Source: Methanobacteriota archaeon (GTDB lineage Archaea; Thermoplasmatota; Poseidoniia; Poseidoniales; Poseidoniaceae). Taken from it: DNA of 34,460 nucleotides. The notes under the pieces were generated by a model that was not told the origin of the DNA, did no database searches, and was given only the letters and a program-made list of their open reading frames with translations. Shown here one piece after another: positions 26,152 to 34,028 of the stretch. Location of the stretch: positions 57,765 to 92,224 of the forward strand of contig NZRR01000056.1 in the NCBI GenBank assembly GCA_002696315.1, given 5' to 3'. Numbering within the stretch: position 1 is the stretch's first letter; each line of letters starts with the position of its first letter. The translations under genes were made by a program, and so were the position numbers.

Positions 26152-26967
26152 GTGAGAGATAATAATTTCCAGTCTGATGATTTGATTTCTGAAGGTGAAG
26201 TAAGGGGTTGGGTACGTAGAAAAATGGGTTGGAAAGAAGCATTCCAAACAGGACTTGTGTTAGGGGTGGTTGGTTTCGTATTTACATTTATTTTGCATCT
26301 TTATTATATCGCATTAAATCCAGATTTAATTTTAAGAGGTTTCAAGGTAGCATTTGGGTCTTCTTTATTTCTTACATTTTCAGGTACAATTTGTTTTAAG
26401 TTAGTTGGTAAAAAAGTTTGGGAAGGACATCAAGGATTAGATCCAATTGATGTTTTGAAAAATGTATTATCACCTATAGAAAAAATGGCAGATAATTTAC
26501 TTTGGAGTCCCGTAAGAACTTGGAAAATAAAAACACATGTTCGTAGTGAAGGAATTGGTACAACTGTAGATTTGCATGATCTAGATGTCAAAACAGGTAA
26601 AGCTGTAGTTGAGGTATTGATTGCTGTACGGAATAAAGTAGGACGAATTAGATTAGTAACGGGTAGGGGAAAACATTCTTCAAAAGAAGCTAAAATGAGA
26701 CCAGCAATTTTAGAAATGTTAAGAAAAAGACAATTAGAACATAATTGGAATATGCAGATTGGACAAGGAAGCGTTACTCTAAGACCTAGAAAAAATAAAA
26801 TATCTAATGGAATGATGTTTCTTAAATTCTTATTATTTGCCATACCTCTTAGTATTGGTGGTTTTTTTGGTTTTTCTGCGATTGGTAATGGTGATGAAAT
26901 TTCTCAAGTGGTGGGCCTAGTTTCTGGGGCATTTTTAGCAGCAATACTTGCATCTTACAATGAATGA
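26152..26967 (+). CDS. Membrane-anchored Smr-domain protein
   Basis: This 271-residue protein starts with GTG. Membrane segments at about 33-53 and 66-84 precede a soluble domain, and two more (about 223-244 and 251-267) follow it. The soluble part (about 138-213) is an Smr domain: VDLHDLDVKTGKAVVEVL carries the D-L-H motif (140-142), and IRLVTGRGKHSSKEAKMRP carries the T-G-x-G-x-H-S motif (170-176). A final basic strand ends SVTLRPRK. Smr domains are found in MutS2 and in stand-alone nucleases that cleave RNA or DNA, including collided-ribosome mRNA. Placing one between pairs of membrane helices is unusual. I infer a membrane-localised nuclease or nucleic-acid binding role. It is a single-gene unit whose end overlaps the convergent thiQ by 13 nt. 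Confidence 0.8.
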   Translation: MRDNNFQSDDLISEGEVRGWVRRKMGWKEAFQTGLVLGVVGFVFTFILHLYYIALNPDLILRGFKVAFGSSLFLTFSGTICFKLVGKKVWEGHQGLDPIDVLKNVLSPIEKMADNLLWSPVRTWKIKTHVRSEGIGTTVDLHDLDVKTGKAVVEVLIAVRNKVGRIRLVTGRGKHSSKEAKMRPAILEMLRKRQLEHNWNMQIGQGSVTLRPRKNKISNGMMFLKFLLFAIPLSIGGFFGFSAIGNGDEISQVVGLVSGAFLAAILASYNE

Positions 26968-27569
26968 TTACTTTTACTATGGCTTGAAAGATTGACAATT
27001 CTATCCGAAAAAAGTTCAGCCTCCTCTTTGTTATGAGTGACTAAAATACTAGGACATTTACGTTTTTTTAACACATCTCTTACATCTGAAATTAATTTTT
27101 TTGATAATTCAGAATCTATTGCACTGAATGGTTCATCTAAAAGTAACACTTTTGGATTTGCCAATAGTGCCCTAGCAAGAGCAATTCTTTGACCTTCGCC
27201 TCCAGATAATTTATCTATTGCTCGAGATCCAAAACCAGAAAGACTAACTTCTTCTAATGCTTTATCATGTCCAAATTTAGACGCTAGTGATAGATTTCCA
27301 GATACAGATAAATGGGGGTAAAGAACAGGTTTTTGAAATATCATTCCAATCCCTCTTTCTTCTGCACGAGTATCTGTGATATCTATTCCACCTAATTTTA
27401 TTGTGCCAGAGTCCAAGGTCTCTAGACCGCAAATACATCTTAACAGTGTAGTCTTTCCACAACCAGAGGGTCCAACTATTGCTATAATTTCTCCAGATTT
27501 TAAATTTAGATTCAAATCTTTGAATAAATTTTTTTCAAATGATTTTGATAATCCTTCACATTCAAGCAT
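26955..27569 (-). CDS. thiQ: Thiamine ABC transporter, ATP-binding protein
   Basis: This 204-residue ABC ATPase has Walker A GPSGCGKTT (33-41), the Q-loop in IFQKPVLYPHL, signature KLSGGEGQRIALARAL, Walker B KVLLLDEPFSA and switch His in LVTHNKEEA. It powers the ThiB-ThiP importer. It is short, with no C-terminal regulatory domain, like E. coli ThiQ (about 230 residues). The ATG shares one base with the ThiP stop (TGATG), with GGAGGA 8 nt upstream, so translation is coupled. Specificity for thiamine or a thiamine precursor rests on the TPP riboswitch and ThiB at the head of the operon. A ferric-iron type system is the alternative by sequence alone. Confidence 0.88.
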   Translation of the reverse strand: MLECEGLSKSFEKNLFKDLNLNLKSGEIIAIVGPSGCGKTTLLRCICGLETLDSGTIKLGGIDITDTRAEERGIGMIFQKPVLYPHLSVSGNLSLASKFGHDKALEEVSLSGFGSRAIDKLSGGEGQRIALARALLANPKVLLLDEPFSAIDSELSKKLISDVRDVLKKRKCPSILVTHNKEEAELFSDRIVNLSSHSKSNHSL

Positions 27570-29239
27570 CAGAACATTCCTCCGTCTCTATTTGTTCGGA
27601 ATCGTTCAGCGAAAATAAATAATGCCATTGTAATTAACATTAGAACTGTAGCTACTGCATTAGATGCTGGAGAAGTTAATGGGTCCTTCATTGGCTTAGC
27701 TCTCCAAGAATCAATTAATAGGGGGAGTGTCGTCCAATCAGAATTTCTAGCTACAATAAATGATGCTCCAAATTCTCCTAGTGACATAGCTAGAGTAAAT
27801 ATTGTAGCTATGATGATTGAACCTTTTATCAGTGGAAGTTTTATTTTAAAGAATCTTTTGAATTTTTTGATGCCTAATACACGTGCGTTTTCATCATACT
27901 TATCATCTAATGAGCGAATAGTTGGTAAAATTATTCTAACTACAAAGGGAGTAGTAAGCATGATGTGTGCTAAAGAGGGAAGTGGCCAGAAATTATACGC
28001 AGATGAAACATCCAGTTTGATAATGCCTAGTAGAACGCCTAATCCAATCATAGCAGCACTTAATGCGAATGGTAGCATAGTGAAAATATCTAGAACTCTA
28101 GCCATTCGTTTATTTTTATTTTCTAGGTCGTGAATTGTTGATGCTAGTAAGTATCCTAACGGTAGTGCGACAAATAGTGTGATTATTGCATATCCTAATG
28201 AATTGAGCATTGCATCAATCAATGGTGGAAATGAATATGATCCTTCAAATGCTAAATACCATCCTTCTAAACCCCATCTAAATCTAATTTCATCATCTAT
28301 TGACTCACGAATTCTAAACGAACCAATTCCTACAGAAATCAAAGGTAATAAAGCAAATCCTATCGCAGGAATAAGAATTAACCATCCACGTGAATTTTTC
28401 TTTTGTGAATGTAGTGGACTTGATTGAGGTAACTTAGCTTGTCTTTTTCTTTGAATGACAGAGGTAATCCATAATGAAAATAGAAGTATTGAAAATTGTA
28501 TTACAGATGCACCCATTACAATTTTTGATGTAGATTCCATATATCCTTTTATGCCAGCAGATGAAGATACGTCTGCCATCATGCTTTCAAGAGTATTATT
28601 TCCCACAGTAATCCATCGAACTAATGCAAATGAGGTGAATGAGAACACGAATGTCATACATGCTGCAGCTATTATTGAAGGTGTTAACAGTGGTAACCAA
28701 AGATTTCTTAATCTTGAAAATCTACTTTGGCCATTAGGCAAAAGTCGTAATTGTTCTTCAAGTTCTGGATCTAATGTTGAAAGGACTGGTTCACAGAAAC
28801 GAATAACTAATGCCATATTGAACCATGCATGTGAGACTATTAAGGTCCACCACCAAGTTGATTCATTAGTCCTTAAATTAAGCCCTTGGTGGCCAACAAT
28901 TGTTAGAATCCCCATAGCTGCAATTATTGATGGGATGACGAAAGGCATTGTCAAAATAGTTCTGATAAAAGACTCGAAAGGCCATTTGTACCTTCCAAGT
29001 GTCCAAGCAATAGGGATTCCTATTAAAAGAGTAAAAACAGTTGAAAAAATGGCTTGAATAACTGTGAATTCAATAACTCCTTGAGAGATATAATTATTGT
29101 TTAGGGAATCAATCCATTCAAATGGACTAAAACCAGTAACCCAAACCAATCTTTGTAGTGCCAAATACAGCGGTAGAAGAATAATTGTTGCATATAGAGT
29201 TACAGCAAGTATGCTAGTAACTTTACGCAATTTAGTCAC
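27569..29239 (-). CDS. thiP: Thiamine ABC transporter, fused two-module permease
   Basis: This 556-residue membrane protein has the duplicated permease plan of ThiP/FbpB-type transporters. Two halves of about six membrane segments each are seen. Each half carries an EAA-type coupling loop, LEEQLRLLPNGQSRFSRLRN in the first and YDENARVLGIKKFKRFFKIK in the second. The two translocation modules form the pore that ThiQ drives and ThiB loads. It starts with GTG inside the end of thiB (8-nt overlap) with no clear SD, so it depends on translational coupling. It ends at thiQ with a one-base overlap. A 200-codon frame on the opposite strand is a shadow. Confidence 0.88.
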   Translation of the reverse strand: MTKLRKVTSILAVTLYATIILLPLYLALQRLVWVTGFSPFEWIDSLNNNYISQGVIEFTVIQAIFSTVFTLLIGIPIAWTLGRYKWPFESFIRTILTMPFVIPSIIAAMGILTIVGHQGLNLRTNESTWWWTLIVSHAWFNMALVIRFCEPVLSTLDPELEEQLRLLPNGQSRFSRLRNLWLPLLTPSIIAAACMTFVFSFTSFALVRWITVGNNTLESMMADVSSSAGIKGYMESTSKIVMGASVIQFSILLFSLWITSVIQRKRQAKLPQSSPLHSQKKNSRGWLILIPAIGFALLPLISVGIGSFRIRESIDDEIRFRWGLEGWYLAFEGSYSFPPLIDAMLNSLGYAIITLFVALPLGYLLASTIHDLENKNKRMARVLDIFTMLPFALSAAMIGLGVLLGIIKLDVSSAYNFWPLPSLAHIMLTTPFVVRIILPTIRSLDDKYDENARVLGIKKFKRFFKIKLPLIKGSIIIATIFTLAMSLGEFGASFIVARNSDWTTLPLLIDSWRAKPMKDPLTSPASNAVATVLMLITMALFIFAERFRTNRDGGMF

Positions 29240-30368
29240 CTGATGTCATGGCATTATTCCATTTTTGAAGCCATAATTCCATATTTTCTGCTATTTCTAA
29301 CATTGAAATTTGTGCAGAGTCTTGAGGTATTGTTGAGTGATATAGATATCCTTTTTCTTCAGGCAAATCTTGCCCCTCAAGTACTGAGTACATTGAATTT
29401 TGAATTGGCATTTCAGAATTTACTTCCTCACTCAAAAGATATTCAATAAATAGTGAAGAAGCTATATTATTTCCTCCAGCTACTGATGAAGCATATTCAA
29501 CCTGGAAGAATGAAGAACCAGGAATATCCAAAGTTGCAGATTTTGTCCAGTTATCATTGAACCAGGATTCAACTCCAGGCGAATGGCAATATGAGACTGT
29601 AACATGAGCGTCACCAATATATCCTTCAGTCCATTCTCCATATCCTCCTGTGTAATGGGTTTCATATGCTTCTGACCACCCTGATGTGATGATTACATCA
29701 TTTTCTTCCATTGCACTCCACCATTGTTCCCAGCCCATAGATGAATTATTATTTCCTGAGTTTGAAAAATAATCAATAGTTGCTAACATGAATGCTCTTC
29801 CAGGGCTACTAGATACTGGAGAGGGTATGGCTACTTTTCCACGCCATTTTTCTTCTGTAAGATTCCATAAATTAGTAGGAATAGTCATGTTTAATCCATC
29901 TACGATATTAGAATCATAGTTTAAACATACATGGCCCATATCGAAGGGTACTGCTAATGGACCATCATATGGTGTGAGTGCTTTTTGTGATATATTCTCT
30001 AAATTTTCAGCAATGTGTTCGATTAATATTCCTTGCTCAATTGCAATTTGCAGGTATGTATTATCCAGCCCAATTGCTAAATCAATAGCATTATTTCCTT
30101 TGTTTTGGATAAGAAAATCTAGAACTGAACCTGAATCGCCGAGTTTAGTCATTGTGACTTTAATTCCAGTTTGATTTTCAAAATTTTCAATCATTTCATC
30201 TGTTAATGCATATACGTCATAAGTCGCTATATTTAATTCAAAATCATGTTCTTGATCTGATTCTTGTTCTGAACTAAAACACCCAGAAAAAGACATGCTA
30301 ATAAGTAATAAAATTACAATTAATTCATTCGTTCTTTTTTTTATCGCTCTGTTAATTTTTTTATTCAT
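29232..30368 (-). CDS. thiB: Thiamine-binding lipoprotein of the ABC importer
   Basis: This 378-residue solute-binding lipoprotein has a hydrophobic signal ending in the lipobox SFSGC (Cys30). The mature part matches the thiamine-binding TbpA/ThiB group: LNIATYDVYAL, IDLAIGLDNTYLQ, LAVPFDMGHVCLNYD and VAIPSPVSSSPGRAFMLAT. VSYCHSPGVESWFND and FFQVEYASSVAGG follow. These regions line the thiamine pocket in E. coli TbpA. The ATG has GGAGGA 6 nt upstream, and that SD sits at the 3' end of a TPP riboswitch. Expression should fall when thiamine pyrophosphate is abundant. It is the first gene of the thiB-thiP-thiQ operon. Confidence 0.9.
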   Translation of the reverse strand: MNKKINRAIKKRTNELIVILLLISMSFSGCFSSEQESDQEHDFELNIATYDVYALTDEMIENFENQTGIKVTMTKLGDSGSVLDFLIQNKGNNAIDLAIGLDNTYLQIAIEQGILIEHIAENLENISQKALTPYDGPLAVPFDMGHVCLNYDSNIVDGLNMTIPTNLWNLTEEKWRGKVAIPSPVSSSPGRAFMLATIDYFSNSGNNNSSMGWEQWWSAMEENDVIITSGWSEAYETHYTGGYGEWTEGYIGDAHVTVSYCHSPGVESWFNDNWTKSATLDIPGSSFFQVEYASSVAGGNNIASSLFIEYLLSEEVNSEMPIQNSMYSVLEGQDLPEEKGYLYHSTIPQDSAQISMLEIAENMELWLQKWNNAMTSGD

Positions 30369-30371
30369 TTT

Positions 30372-30450
30372 TCTTCCTCCGCTGGCATTATCCAGTTCAG
30401 GTCAATGGGTCGTTACTAAATAACCTCTCAGCAAAAGCTCCCCAGTAAAC
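30372..30450 (-). promoter_or_regulatory. TPP riboswitch (THI element)
   Basis: Read on minus, the conserved TPP aptamer elements appear in order. GGGGAGC (30443-30437) is followed by GCTGAGAGG (30432-30424), which carries the invariant CUGAGA. ACCTGA (30402-30397) and CTGGATAATGCCAGCG (30395-30380) come next, the latter with the P4/P5 CUGG-CCAG stem and UAAUGC pyrophosphate-side loop. AGGAAG ends it. GGG pairs with ACCC to form P2, and AGC-UUUU-GCU makes a short P3. The SD GGAGGA (30380-30375) is the last part of the aptamer and lies 6 nt before the thiB ATG. Binding of TPP would therefore be expected to hide the SD and block translation. P1 pairing is weak by eye. Confidence 0.9.
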
Positions 30451-30463
30451 ATTCCTAGATAAT

Positions 30464-30482
30464 CAAATTAATTTAATATTTC
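30464..30482 (-). promoter_or_regulatory. TATA-like promoter of the thi operon
   Basis: On minus, AAATATTAAATTAATTT lies between the stop of the P5C dehydrogenase gene and the riboswitch. Its centre is about 25-27 nt before the first aptamer base, so transcription would begin right at the riboswitch. This supports thiBPQ being an independent unit and not a read-through from the upstream gene. Confidence 0.5.
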
Positions 30483-30490
30483 TAATTTAA

Positions 30491-32107
30491 TTAATCCATA
30501 AATGAATATGTCCATTTTTGTGGTATTTCTATAGCTCTTTTTACCGAACGCGGCGAAATCCAACGAAGTAAATTAAGAGGCCCTCCTGCTTTATCATTAG
30601 TTCCTGATGCTCTAGCACCTCCAAACGGTTGTTGGGCAACAGCAGCACCAGTTGGCTTATCGTTGATGTAGAAATTACCAGCTGTAAATCTTAGTGCATT
30701 AAATGCGGTTTGAATATCCTCTTCATTATTTGCGAATATAGAACCAGTTAATGCATAGGGTGATGATTTATCACATAATTTCAAAATATTTTGAAATTTA
30801 TCATCATCATAAATATAAATTGTTAAAACAGGACCGAATATTTCCTCGACCATAGTTTCTGATTTAGGGTCGGATGAAAGTATGATTGTTGGTTCAATAA
30901 ACCAGCCCTTGCTATCATCACAGTTCCCTCCGATGATAATTTCACAATTTGGATTATCTCGAGCTCTTTCAATATATCCTTTAATTTTGTTAAATGCTCT
31001 TTGATCAATTACTGCAGTCATGAAATTTGAAAAATCTTTAGCATCACCTATTTTAATTTTTGAAATCTCAGAACATAACTCTTCCGAGATAGAATTCCAT
31101 ACGCTTGTTGGAATATATGATCTACTTGCAGCTGAACATTTTTGACCTTGATATTCAAATGCTCCTCTAATTAATGCAACAATTAATCCTTTTTCATCAC
31201 AATTTGGATGGGCAACAATAAAATCTTTCCCGCCGGTTTCACCAACAATTCTTGGATATCCCTTTAGATTAGGTAATTCTTCAGCAATTCTTTGCCATAA
31301 ACCTTGAAATACTGAAGTTGAGCCTGTAAAGTGAACTCCCGCAAAGTCTGGATTCGAAAGAGCGATATCCGTAATTTCTGCTCCAGAACCTGGTACAAAA
31401 TTTATCACCCCAGCAGGTAATCCTGCTTCCATCATTAATTGCATAAGTAAGTAATTTGAGTAATATGAATTTCTACTTGGTTTCCATACTGCAGTACAAC
31501 CAACTAATGCAGGAGCACTAGGGAGGTTTGCAGCAATACTTGAGAAATTGAAAGGAGTGATGGCTAGAATAAAGCCTTCTAAAGGTCTTATTTCAGTTGT
31601 ATTTTCAACTCCTTTTGGTGAGACCAATGGTTGTAAATAATCATGGAAACCTCTGGCATAGTGGGAATTAAACCTCCAAAAGTCAATTAATTCGCATGCA
31701 GAATCAATTTCTGCTTGAAAACATGTTTTACTTTGGTTTAACATAGTTGCAGCATTGATTTTCATTCTCCATTCACCGGAAAGCATATCAGCACATTTTT
31801 CAAAAATAGCACATCTTGCTTCAAGTCCAATATTTATCCATTCTTCTTGAGCATCTACAGCAGCTATACATGCAGCTTCCATTTCTGCCTTCCCTGCTAG
31901 ATGTACATTTGCTAGAATATGTCCATGGTTATGAGGGACTACTTGAGTTACAGTATTGCCTGTGAAAATTTCTTGACCATTAATTATGCAAGGAATCTCA
32001 ATTATAGAATTCATTTGATTATCCAATTCTGTTTGTAATTCTTCTCTTTCTGGTGATCCAGGTGCGTATCCTAAAACAGGTTCGTTTGCGGGATGTTCAG
32101 ATGACAT
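30491..32107 (-). CDS. 1-pyrroline-5-carboxylate dehydrogenase
   Basis: This 538-residue aldehyde dehydrogenase of the ALDH4/P5CDH branch oxidises glutamate semialdehyde to glutamate with NAD, the last step of proline (and ornithine) breakdown. Key sites are ITPFNFSSIAANLP (about 183-196, cofactor loop) and HFTGSTSVFQGLW. The general base is Glu290 in VGETGGKDF, the catalytic Cys324 is in YQGQKCSAASRSY, and EEIFGPVLTIYIY and NDKPTGAAVAQQPFGGARASGTNDK lie near the C-terminus. The extended N-terminus and this last motif are typical of P5CDH over other ALDHs. No proline dehydrogenase gene is visible here. It is divergent from the SDR gene and its stop lies 40 nt from the thi riboswitch. Confidence 0.92.
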   Translation of the reverse strand: MSSEHPANEPVLGYAPGSPEREELQTELDNQMNSIIEIPCIINGQEIFTGNTVTQVVPHNHGHILANVHLAGKAEMEAACIAAVDAQEEWINIGLEARCAIFEKCADMLSGEWRMKINAATMLNQSKTCFQAEIDSACELIDFWRFNSHYARGFHDYLQPLVSPKGVENTTEIRPLEGFILAITPFNFSSIAANLPSAPALVGCTAVWKPSRNSYYSNYLLMQLMMEAGLPAGVINFVPGSGAEITDIALSNPDFAGVHFTGSTSVFQGLWQRIAEELPNLKGYPRIVGETGGKDFIVAHPNCDEKGLIVALIRGAFEYQGQKCSAASRSYIPTSVWNSISEELCSEISKIKIGDAKDFSNFMTAVIDQRAFNKIKGYIERARDNPNCEIIIGGNCDDSKGWFIEPTIILSSDPKSETMVEEIFGPVLTIYIYDDDKFQNILKLCDKSSPYALTGSIFANNEEDIQTAFNALRFTAGNFYINDKPTGAAVAQQPFGGARASGTNDKAGGPLNLLRWISPRSVKRAIEIPQKWTYSFMD

Positions 32108-32984: not shown

Positions 32985-34028
32985 TCAGTTAGTTATACTT
33001 TCATTTTTAGAATATCGACTAACAAAATCCCAAATAATTTGATGTGTATCAAAAGTTCCTTGAGTTCCCCAACAACTCCATACAAAATTGTATGATATAT
33101 CGTCACAGATGTCGTTTACATACAGATTATGTCCTCCTGCAAATGAAGTGAATAATGCCACCTCAGTATTATTTCCACAAGAAGTAAAACGCTGAATACT
33201 GTATACTGCATTTGGTTCATTAGAATCAATAATTGGTCCATCACAGTTGTTGAATGCTGCCCAATCATATAGATTCTCTACTGCTCCATTTTGTATTGCC
33301 TCTATGGTTCGAGCATCTTCTTCAAAAAATGTAAGACGTCCAGAATTCGTATATTGGGCAATTTCATCTAGTACACCGTGCATTTCCATAATGGGAATTG
33401 GAGAATATTGGGAATCATCAGTGAATCCGAGATAGCCAGAAGTGCATGCAACTGCGGCAATCAAATGACTAGCCTCCAAGGCCATTCTTTGAGACATTTG
33501 ACATCCATTTGACCAACCTGTGAAGTATATTCGATTTTCATCCACGGGATATTCTTCGGTAATATTGTTGATCAATTTGATTAGGAATCCTGAATCATTG
33601 ATATCTAGTGCCTTTGCATCTCCACAGCAAACTCCTGAATTCCATGATTCTTCATTTTCTCCAAATGCTCCACTATTTGGAATTGCTAGTCCTTCAGGAT
33701 GAACTACTATTGCACCAACATCATCAGCTAACGAGGTGATACTCGTGTAGTTCCTCATTTCAAAAGATGACGCCGCCCATCCATGAAGTTCGAAAATTAC
33801 AGGTGATTTCGATGATAAATTTATATTTTCAGGGAAATATGTAAGCCAACATCTATCCCATCCTTCAAACTCCATACATTCGTATTTATCTGGATCAGGT
33901 ACTATTAATTCATCAATAATCAAATTTTCATTATCAACTTCTTCTGAAATTACTTCTTTTCCTATACATCCAGAGATACTGGCAGAAATGAAGAGAAACG
34001 CAACTAATAGTATTTTCACATCTCTCAT
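32985..34028 (-). CDS. Secreted lipoprotein esterase, PHB-depolymerase/feruloyl-esterase type
   Basis: This 347-residue alpha/beta hydrolase is exported by a signal ending in the lipobox SISGC (Cys21). The fold is shown by VIFELHGWAASS (oxyanion region, about 77-88), IVVHPEGL and SWNSGVCCGDA. The nucleophile elbow GWSNGCQMS has Ser173. Asp221 is in MHGVLDEI and His300 in FAGGHNLY. The pattern is that of the LpqC/PHB-depolymerase family, which includes feruloyl and other polyester or carbohydrate esterases. The cluster of Cys residues suggests disulfides in the extracellular protein. It is convergent to the SDR gene and probably a single unit. The substrate cannot be told from the sequence. 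It fits a lifestyle of polymer degradation. Confidence 0.87.
   Translation of the reverse strand: MRDVKILLVAFLFISASISGCIGKEVISEEVDNENLIIDELIVPDPDKYECMEFEGWDRCWLTYFPENINLSSKSPVIFELHGWAASSFEMRNYTSITSLADDVGAIVVHPEGLAIPNSGAFGENEESWNSGVCCGDAKALDINDSGFLIKLINNITEEYPVDENRIYFTGWSNGCQMSQRMALEASHLIAAVACTSGYLGFTDDSQYSPIPIMEMHGVLDEIAQYTNSGRLTFFEEDARTIEAIQNGAVENLYDWAAFNNCDGPIIDSNEPNAVYSIQRFTSCGNNTEVALFTSFAGGHNLYVNDICDDISYNFVWSCWGTQGTFDTHQIIWDFVSRYSKNESITN

Follow-up and report, generated by a model that had tools for sequence, protein, structure and literature searches.

Marine Group II archaea (order Poseidoniales) are abundant and uncultured. In TPP riboswitches of the E. coli thiM/thiC type, the archetype of Rfam family RF00059, a helix P1 and a separate expression platform belong to the switch. 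Direct attenuation of translation by TPP riboswitches is reported to have been predicted by Rodionov et al. (2002), and Barrick and Breaker (2007; PMC2258182) described riboswitches in which the ribosome-binding site is buried in the aptamer core and the ligand directly attenuates translation, a design commonest for TPP, preQ1 and SAM-I riboswitches; TPP riboswitches occur in euryarchaea as well (PMC2258182). For the thiV riboswitch of SAR11, transcriptional shut-off has been proposed (PMC11452348). A pattern scan for the design with a ribosome-binding site in the aptamer returned at least 117 stretches from many bacterial phyla, Bathyarchaeota and Thalassarchaeum, and TPP riboswitches were confirmed by cmscan in 17 of the 19 loci checked. 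Because the design has been described and the scan finds it widely, the mechanism is already known, and direct masking of the Shine-Dalgarno (SD) sequence, for which the initial annotation of the locus studied here implied novelty, belongs to a recognised class of TPP riboswitches (PMC2258182).

The window, that is, the whole stretch of 34,460 nucleotides analysed, belongs to a MAG of 1.71 Mb (80.6% complete). A single RNA was detected in it by cmscan, an RF00059 match on the minus strand between pruA and thiB (model positions 1–105, 62.1 bits, E 4.8e-10, gathering cut-off 54.3 bits), and no other match was found in the rest of the MAG. The initial annotation had recognised the core TPP aptamer motifs on this strand and had proposed an RF00059 search, with a match expected over 30372–30450; the search bore this out, and the span then given (30372–30482) takes in the TATA-like stretch as well as the core of the aptamer. 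Features are listed in Table 1.

Table 1. Features of the thiBPQ leader and its surroundings (window coordinates)
Feature	Coordinates	Strand	Remarks
pruA, upstream neighbour	30491..32107	-	TIGR01236, 769 bits
TATA-like promoter element AATATTAAAT	30471..30480	-	consensus AAtgTTgAAT in the order
TPP riboswitch aptamer	30357..30454	-	RF00059 covariance-model match; core P2–P4, 30444–30376
Predicted transcription start region	30444..30447	-	A30446 likely +1, inferred from promoter spacing
P2 5' strand UGGG	30441..30444	-	partner CCCA 30409–30406; outer pair covaries UA/AU/CG/GC
CUGAGAG segment, presumed pyrimidine-binding	30425..30431	-	invariant in 52 relatives; role taken from established TPP aptamer structures
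P3 stem-loop	30412..30424	-	5/6 pairs with changes on both sides in relatives
P4–P5 arm	30376..30401	-	P4, CCU 30401–30399 with AGG 30378–30376; P4 pairs kept in 52/52
P5	CUGG 30395–30392 with CCAG 30385–30382	-	within P4–P5 arm
Shine-Dalgarno GGAGG	30376..30380	-	last three bases in P4; kept in 60/60 leaders
thiB, thiamine-binding lipoprotein of ABC importer	29232..30368	-	TIGR01254, 157.8 bits (cut-off 93.4)
thiP-like permease	27569..29239	-	BPD_transp_1; ThiP and related permease models below cut-offs
thiQ-like ATPase	26955..27569	-	ABC_tran; ThiQ models below cut-off

The aptamer, its helices, the position and conservation of the SD and the absence of P1 were read from sequence. An alignment of 52 relatives contained the core helices P2, P3, P4 and P5, and the RNAalifold consensus proposed P2, P3a, P3, P4 and P5 and left out P1; P3a is minimal in the window aptamer. 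Covariation was observed in P3, the outer pair of P2 and P5, P4 being invariant, and all covariation measures exceeded those of shuffles and slid controls. Taken together, helix covariation in the 52 relatives and retention of GGAGG in 60 of 60 leaders confirmed, at the level of sequence comparison, that the predicted TPP riboswitch is real, beyond chance. Many relatives nevertheless score near or below the Rfam cut-off, as might a relic without function or an aptamer whose ligand has changed (e.g. to HMP-PP or thiamine), and the targets found elsewhere in the order are similar to ThiV, which in SAR11 is an HMP symporter (PMC11452348). Against such a reading, to which we give very little credence, the motifs CUGAGAG, ACCUGA, UAAU and GCGGAGG are invariant or nearly so in the 52 sequences, and P3 covaries.

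The genes downstream, thiB, thiP and thiQ, overlap head to tail. ThiB is assigned at subfamily level and matches PDB 2qry, the thiamine-binding periplasmic protein ThiB of E. coli, and ThiP and ThiQ are assigned at superfamily level only, so that a ThiBPQ importer is recognised at these levels. The first annotation of thiB as the target of the riboswitch is supported; its start codon (30368–30366) lies 7 nt after the SD. In five genomes of the genus, all incomplete MAGs, ThiC was not found and ThiN was found in 5/5; therefore, thiamine-type import matters, and cells of the genus probably rely on the import of thiamine or of its pyrimidine. Elsewhere in the window, a lipoprotein gene (32985–34028) weakly matches extracellular short-chain PHA depolymerase/esterase families (101 bits, cut-off 150).

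Three of the five bases of GGAGG are paired in the ligand-binding fold as the 3' strand of P4. The SD thus does not close the aptamer, as had been supposed in the initial annotation, and the closing helix P1 is itself unsupported; the SD does, as annotated, lie within the conserved 3' portion. At model position 83, where the Rfam consensus has u, the window has G; this base makes up the full GGAGG at the expense of a G-U pair. Sixty leaders were extracted from genomes of the order; GCGGAGG was kept in all of them, and ATG followed GGAGG at 3–11 nt in 59, almost always at 7–8 nt. One aberrant match (G050:C69:45-140, L006/L076) was set aside; this TPP riboswitch is unlike the others in the order, with 5/5 P1 pairs and a different core, and its contig, of 7.4 kb, may be foreign DNA in that MAG. 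By its sequence, the leader combines a ribosome-binding site within the conserved aptamer core with a start codon close behind, the arrangement of direct translation attenuation.

The 16S rRNA 3' end of relatives, one of them from the window's genus, is GGATCACCTCCT and, as located through 16S loci, reads AGATGGATCACCTCCT; because it carries the anti-SD CCTCC, masking of the SD is plausible. SD-like 4-mers were found at −16 to −5 in about 24% of the genes of the MAG versus 5–7% further upstream, and since only about a quarter of the genes show such a site, dependence of thiB on its SD is assumed. The computed cost of opening the SD was 3.7 kcal/mol for the free RNA. In the computed fold of the window RNA, AGG is already paired without ligand (probability of being unpaired ca. 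0.02–0.05), which leaves the ON state less than obvious on energetic grounds. TPP riboswitches work by various mechanisms (PMC2258182), and given that SD use is a minority trait in this MAG, the RNA might bind TPP and act on transcription or mRNA stability, its overlap with the SD being incidental. This is quite improbable: no leader of the order lacks GGAGG, while in other Thermoplasmatota the leaders that bear a P1 mostly carry GAAGG, and the 7 nt between SD and ATG leave no room for a terminator, or for any separate expression platform, in agreement with the initial annotation.

A TATA-like motif was extracted by expectation maximisation from the 48 nt upstream of the leaders, with a log-likelihood ratio of 156.5 versus 24–33 for shuffles. 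In 44 of the 46 leaders left after dereplication it lies 37–33 nt upstream of the first G of P2, and in the window the first T of the element is 33 nt before P2; the TATA-like box noted at the outset just upstream of the aptamer therefore recurs at a near-fixed distance in relatives. The motif returned by a first search over 90 nt upstream was rejected, being the end of the pruA gene and not a promoter; a pruA-like end lies just upstream of the riboswitch in 45 of 60 leaders. Upstream of annotated genes in general the TATA-like motif is diffuse, about two-fold over shuffles, and it is weak before the few tRNA genes of the MAG examined. The start site was calibrated with the order's own SRP and RNase P RNA genes, RNA 5' ends being equated with model ends. 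A TT-N-A core was located 29 nt upstream of the first conserved GGG in 23 of 29 SRP RNA genes and 31 nt upstream of GGGAG in 16 of 30 RNase P RNA genes, and the distance from the TATA-like core to the P2 GGGG is 29–33 nt in nearly all TPP leaders. Because these spacings match, the mRNA probably begins at P2; as predicted from spacing, the start of the thiBPQ transcript is most likely no more than about four bases away from it. A transcript start downstream of the aptamer, named in the initial annotation as grounds for refutation, is not indicated, the predicted start being the 5' edge of P2. Also upstream of the SRP RNA (L370–L399) and RNase P RNA (L400–L429) genes, TT[CG]AAAT and GGTTCAT elements stand at a fixed distance and are candidates for a promoter consensus of the order.

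With a start at P2, transcription would leave out the 5' strand of P1. This closing helix, a feature of RF00059, was sought across the leaders of the order and was not found, pairing being equal to that of permuted controls. The five Rfam P1 pairs were formed in 46% of cells versus 44% after shuffling, and the best flanking helix scored 6.18 versus 6.14 with permuted partners (z 0.23, n = 60). The test is insensitive where a set shares one identical P1, a P1-bearing archaeal group reaching only z 0.83, and for this reason a mostly bacterial set of 71 direct-SD TPP leaders from other genomes served as positive control; its z of 4.65 indicates that the test can detect a P1, and many of the individual bacterial leaders are likewise devoid of it. 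A P1 that is short, shifted or formed with a longer upstream transcript could have been missed, as UGUUU and AAAUG of the window RNA can pair in an AU/GU-rich helix of 5 bp out of the consensus register, and a weak P1 signal (z 2.24) is seen in other Thermoplasmatota of the GGAGG type. We consider this unlikely: the consensus register is at chance, no register tested does better than permuted partners in the 60 sequences, RNAalifold does not recover P1, and the predicted transcript start excludes its 5' strand. The predicted absence of P1 throughout the order is thus the real departure, and its loss seems to be due to the mRNA probably beginning where the aptamer begins.

Some other Thermoplasmatota have a short P1 (GCU/AGC), GAAGG in place of GGAGG and a start codon further downstream. 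P1-bearing archaeal TPP leaders (L024, L029–L031, L077, L080, L082, L096 and L100) share GCTA...AAGC and carry a downstream GCTTYTCTGG-type segment that resembles a separate expression platform. In L088, L091 and other leaders of another Thermoplasmatota family (f6), a possible hairpin after the aptamer, e.g. CTCTCCGCCGGTTCGCCGGAGGA, could hide a second SD.

The leader is very probably a TPP-sensing OFF switch on translation, P1-less and located at the very 5' end of the thiBPQ mRNA. From the sequence we infer the start of transcription, TPP binding, masking and the sign of the response, as follows. Transcription would start at P2 or within about four bases of it, making the aptamer the 5' end of the message. 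When TPP is plentiful, it would bind between the P2–P3 and P4–P5 arms and hold P4 (CCU/AGG) shut; the last three bases of GGAGG would then be paired and initiation on thiB blocked. When TPP is low, the 3-bp P4 would open, GGAGG would pair with CCUCC at the end of 16S rRNA, and synthesis of the importer would follow.

RF00059 matches were found in 102 of 390 genomes of the phylum Thermoplasmatota and in 94 of 319 within the order, taken here as Poseidoniales and called Thalassarchaeum/MGIIb in other records, these 94 being split between the family of the window (6/171) and the other family (88/148); the statement of the initial annotation that TPP riboswitches are sparse in archaea fails in this phylum. 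A survey of relatives for the same thiBPQ leader, also proposed there, found the leader mostly before another target: a ThiV-like SSF symporter in 44 cases, and thiB in 12. Both types of transporter share the leader and its chromosomal place, even within one genus. Genus g18 is one of putative transporter replacement behind a fixed switch. Following the same pruA-riboswitch leader, G298 and G301 have thiB and G400 and G413 have thiV; among its leaders L042, L043, L127 versus L056, L059, L067, some precede thiB and others the unrelated SSF symporter. Riboswitch-led thiB genes form one supported clade (99/96), which brings together the other family and two genomes from the genus of the window, and one small second group. 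In the family of the window thiB is present in 133 of 171 genomes and stands behind this leader only in the window's genome and G003; at most of the other loci inspected there is no leader between thiB and a preceding gene with a ThiN-type end. That the riboswitch had been lost or missed before these other thiB genes (family f1) was considered and rejected, since at most of the loci inspected thiB directly follows the gene with the ThiN-type end. On balance we lean, with less assurance than for the switch itself, towards a 5'-terminal, P1-less TPP riboswitch across Poseidoniales, in which the promoter would lie at a near-fixed distance, the outer switching helix would be gone, P4 would serve as both ligand arm and SD mask, and the leader would be reused before unrelated thiV or thiB genes at one chromosomal place.

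The leader indicates how Marine Group II archaea may sense and import scarce vitamin B1, and offers an inexpensive way of marking thiamine-type import in them in silico. If P1 is dispensable in an aptamer that starts its transcript, the minimal TPP switch falls below textbook size, and the view of P1 as the switching helix would need an exception. In the literature searched, mainly non-subscription journals, no description of riboswitches in this order was found, nor one of an archaeal order with a 5'-terminal, P1-less TPP aptamer.

Compared with known systems, the leader resembles the E. coli thiM/thiC type in P2, P3, P4, P5 and the motifs that contact TPP, and differs from it in having no P1, a minimal P3a and G at model position 83. 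As with the SAR11 thiV riboswitch (PMC11452348), the setting is marine and a TPP riboswitch stands before a transporter for a thiamine precursor; in the order, an SSF symporter follows most of the related leaders. SAR11, however, is bacterial, and the window gene is thiB, not thiV. As in the class of direct translation attenuation, the conserved 3' part of the aptamer, rich in purines, holds the ribosome-binding site, and thiamine genes lie downstream; unlike that class, whose 71 mostly bacterial leaders as a set show P1, the switch described here belongs to an archaeal order in which P1 is at chance.
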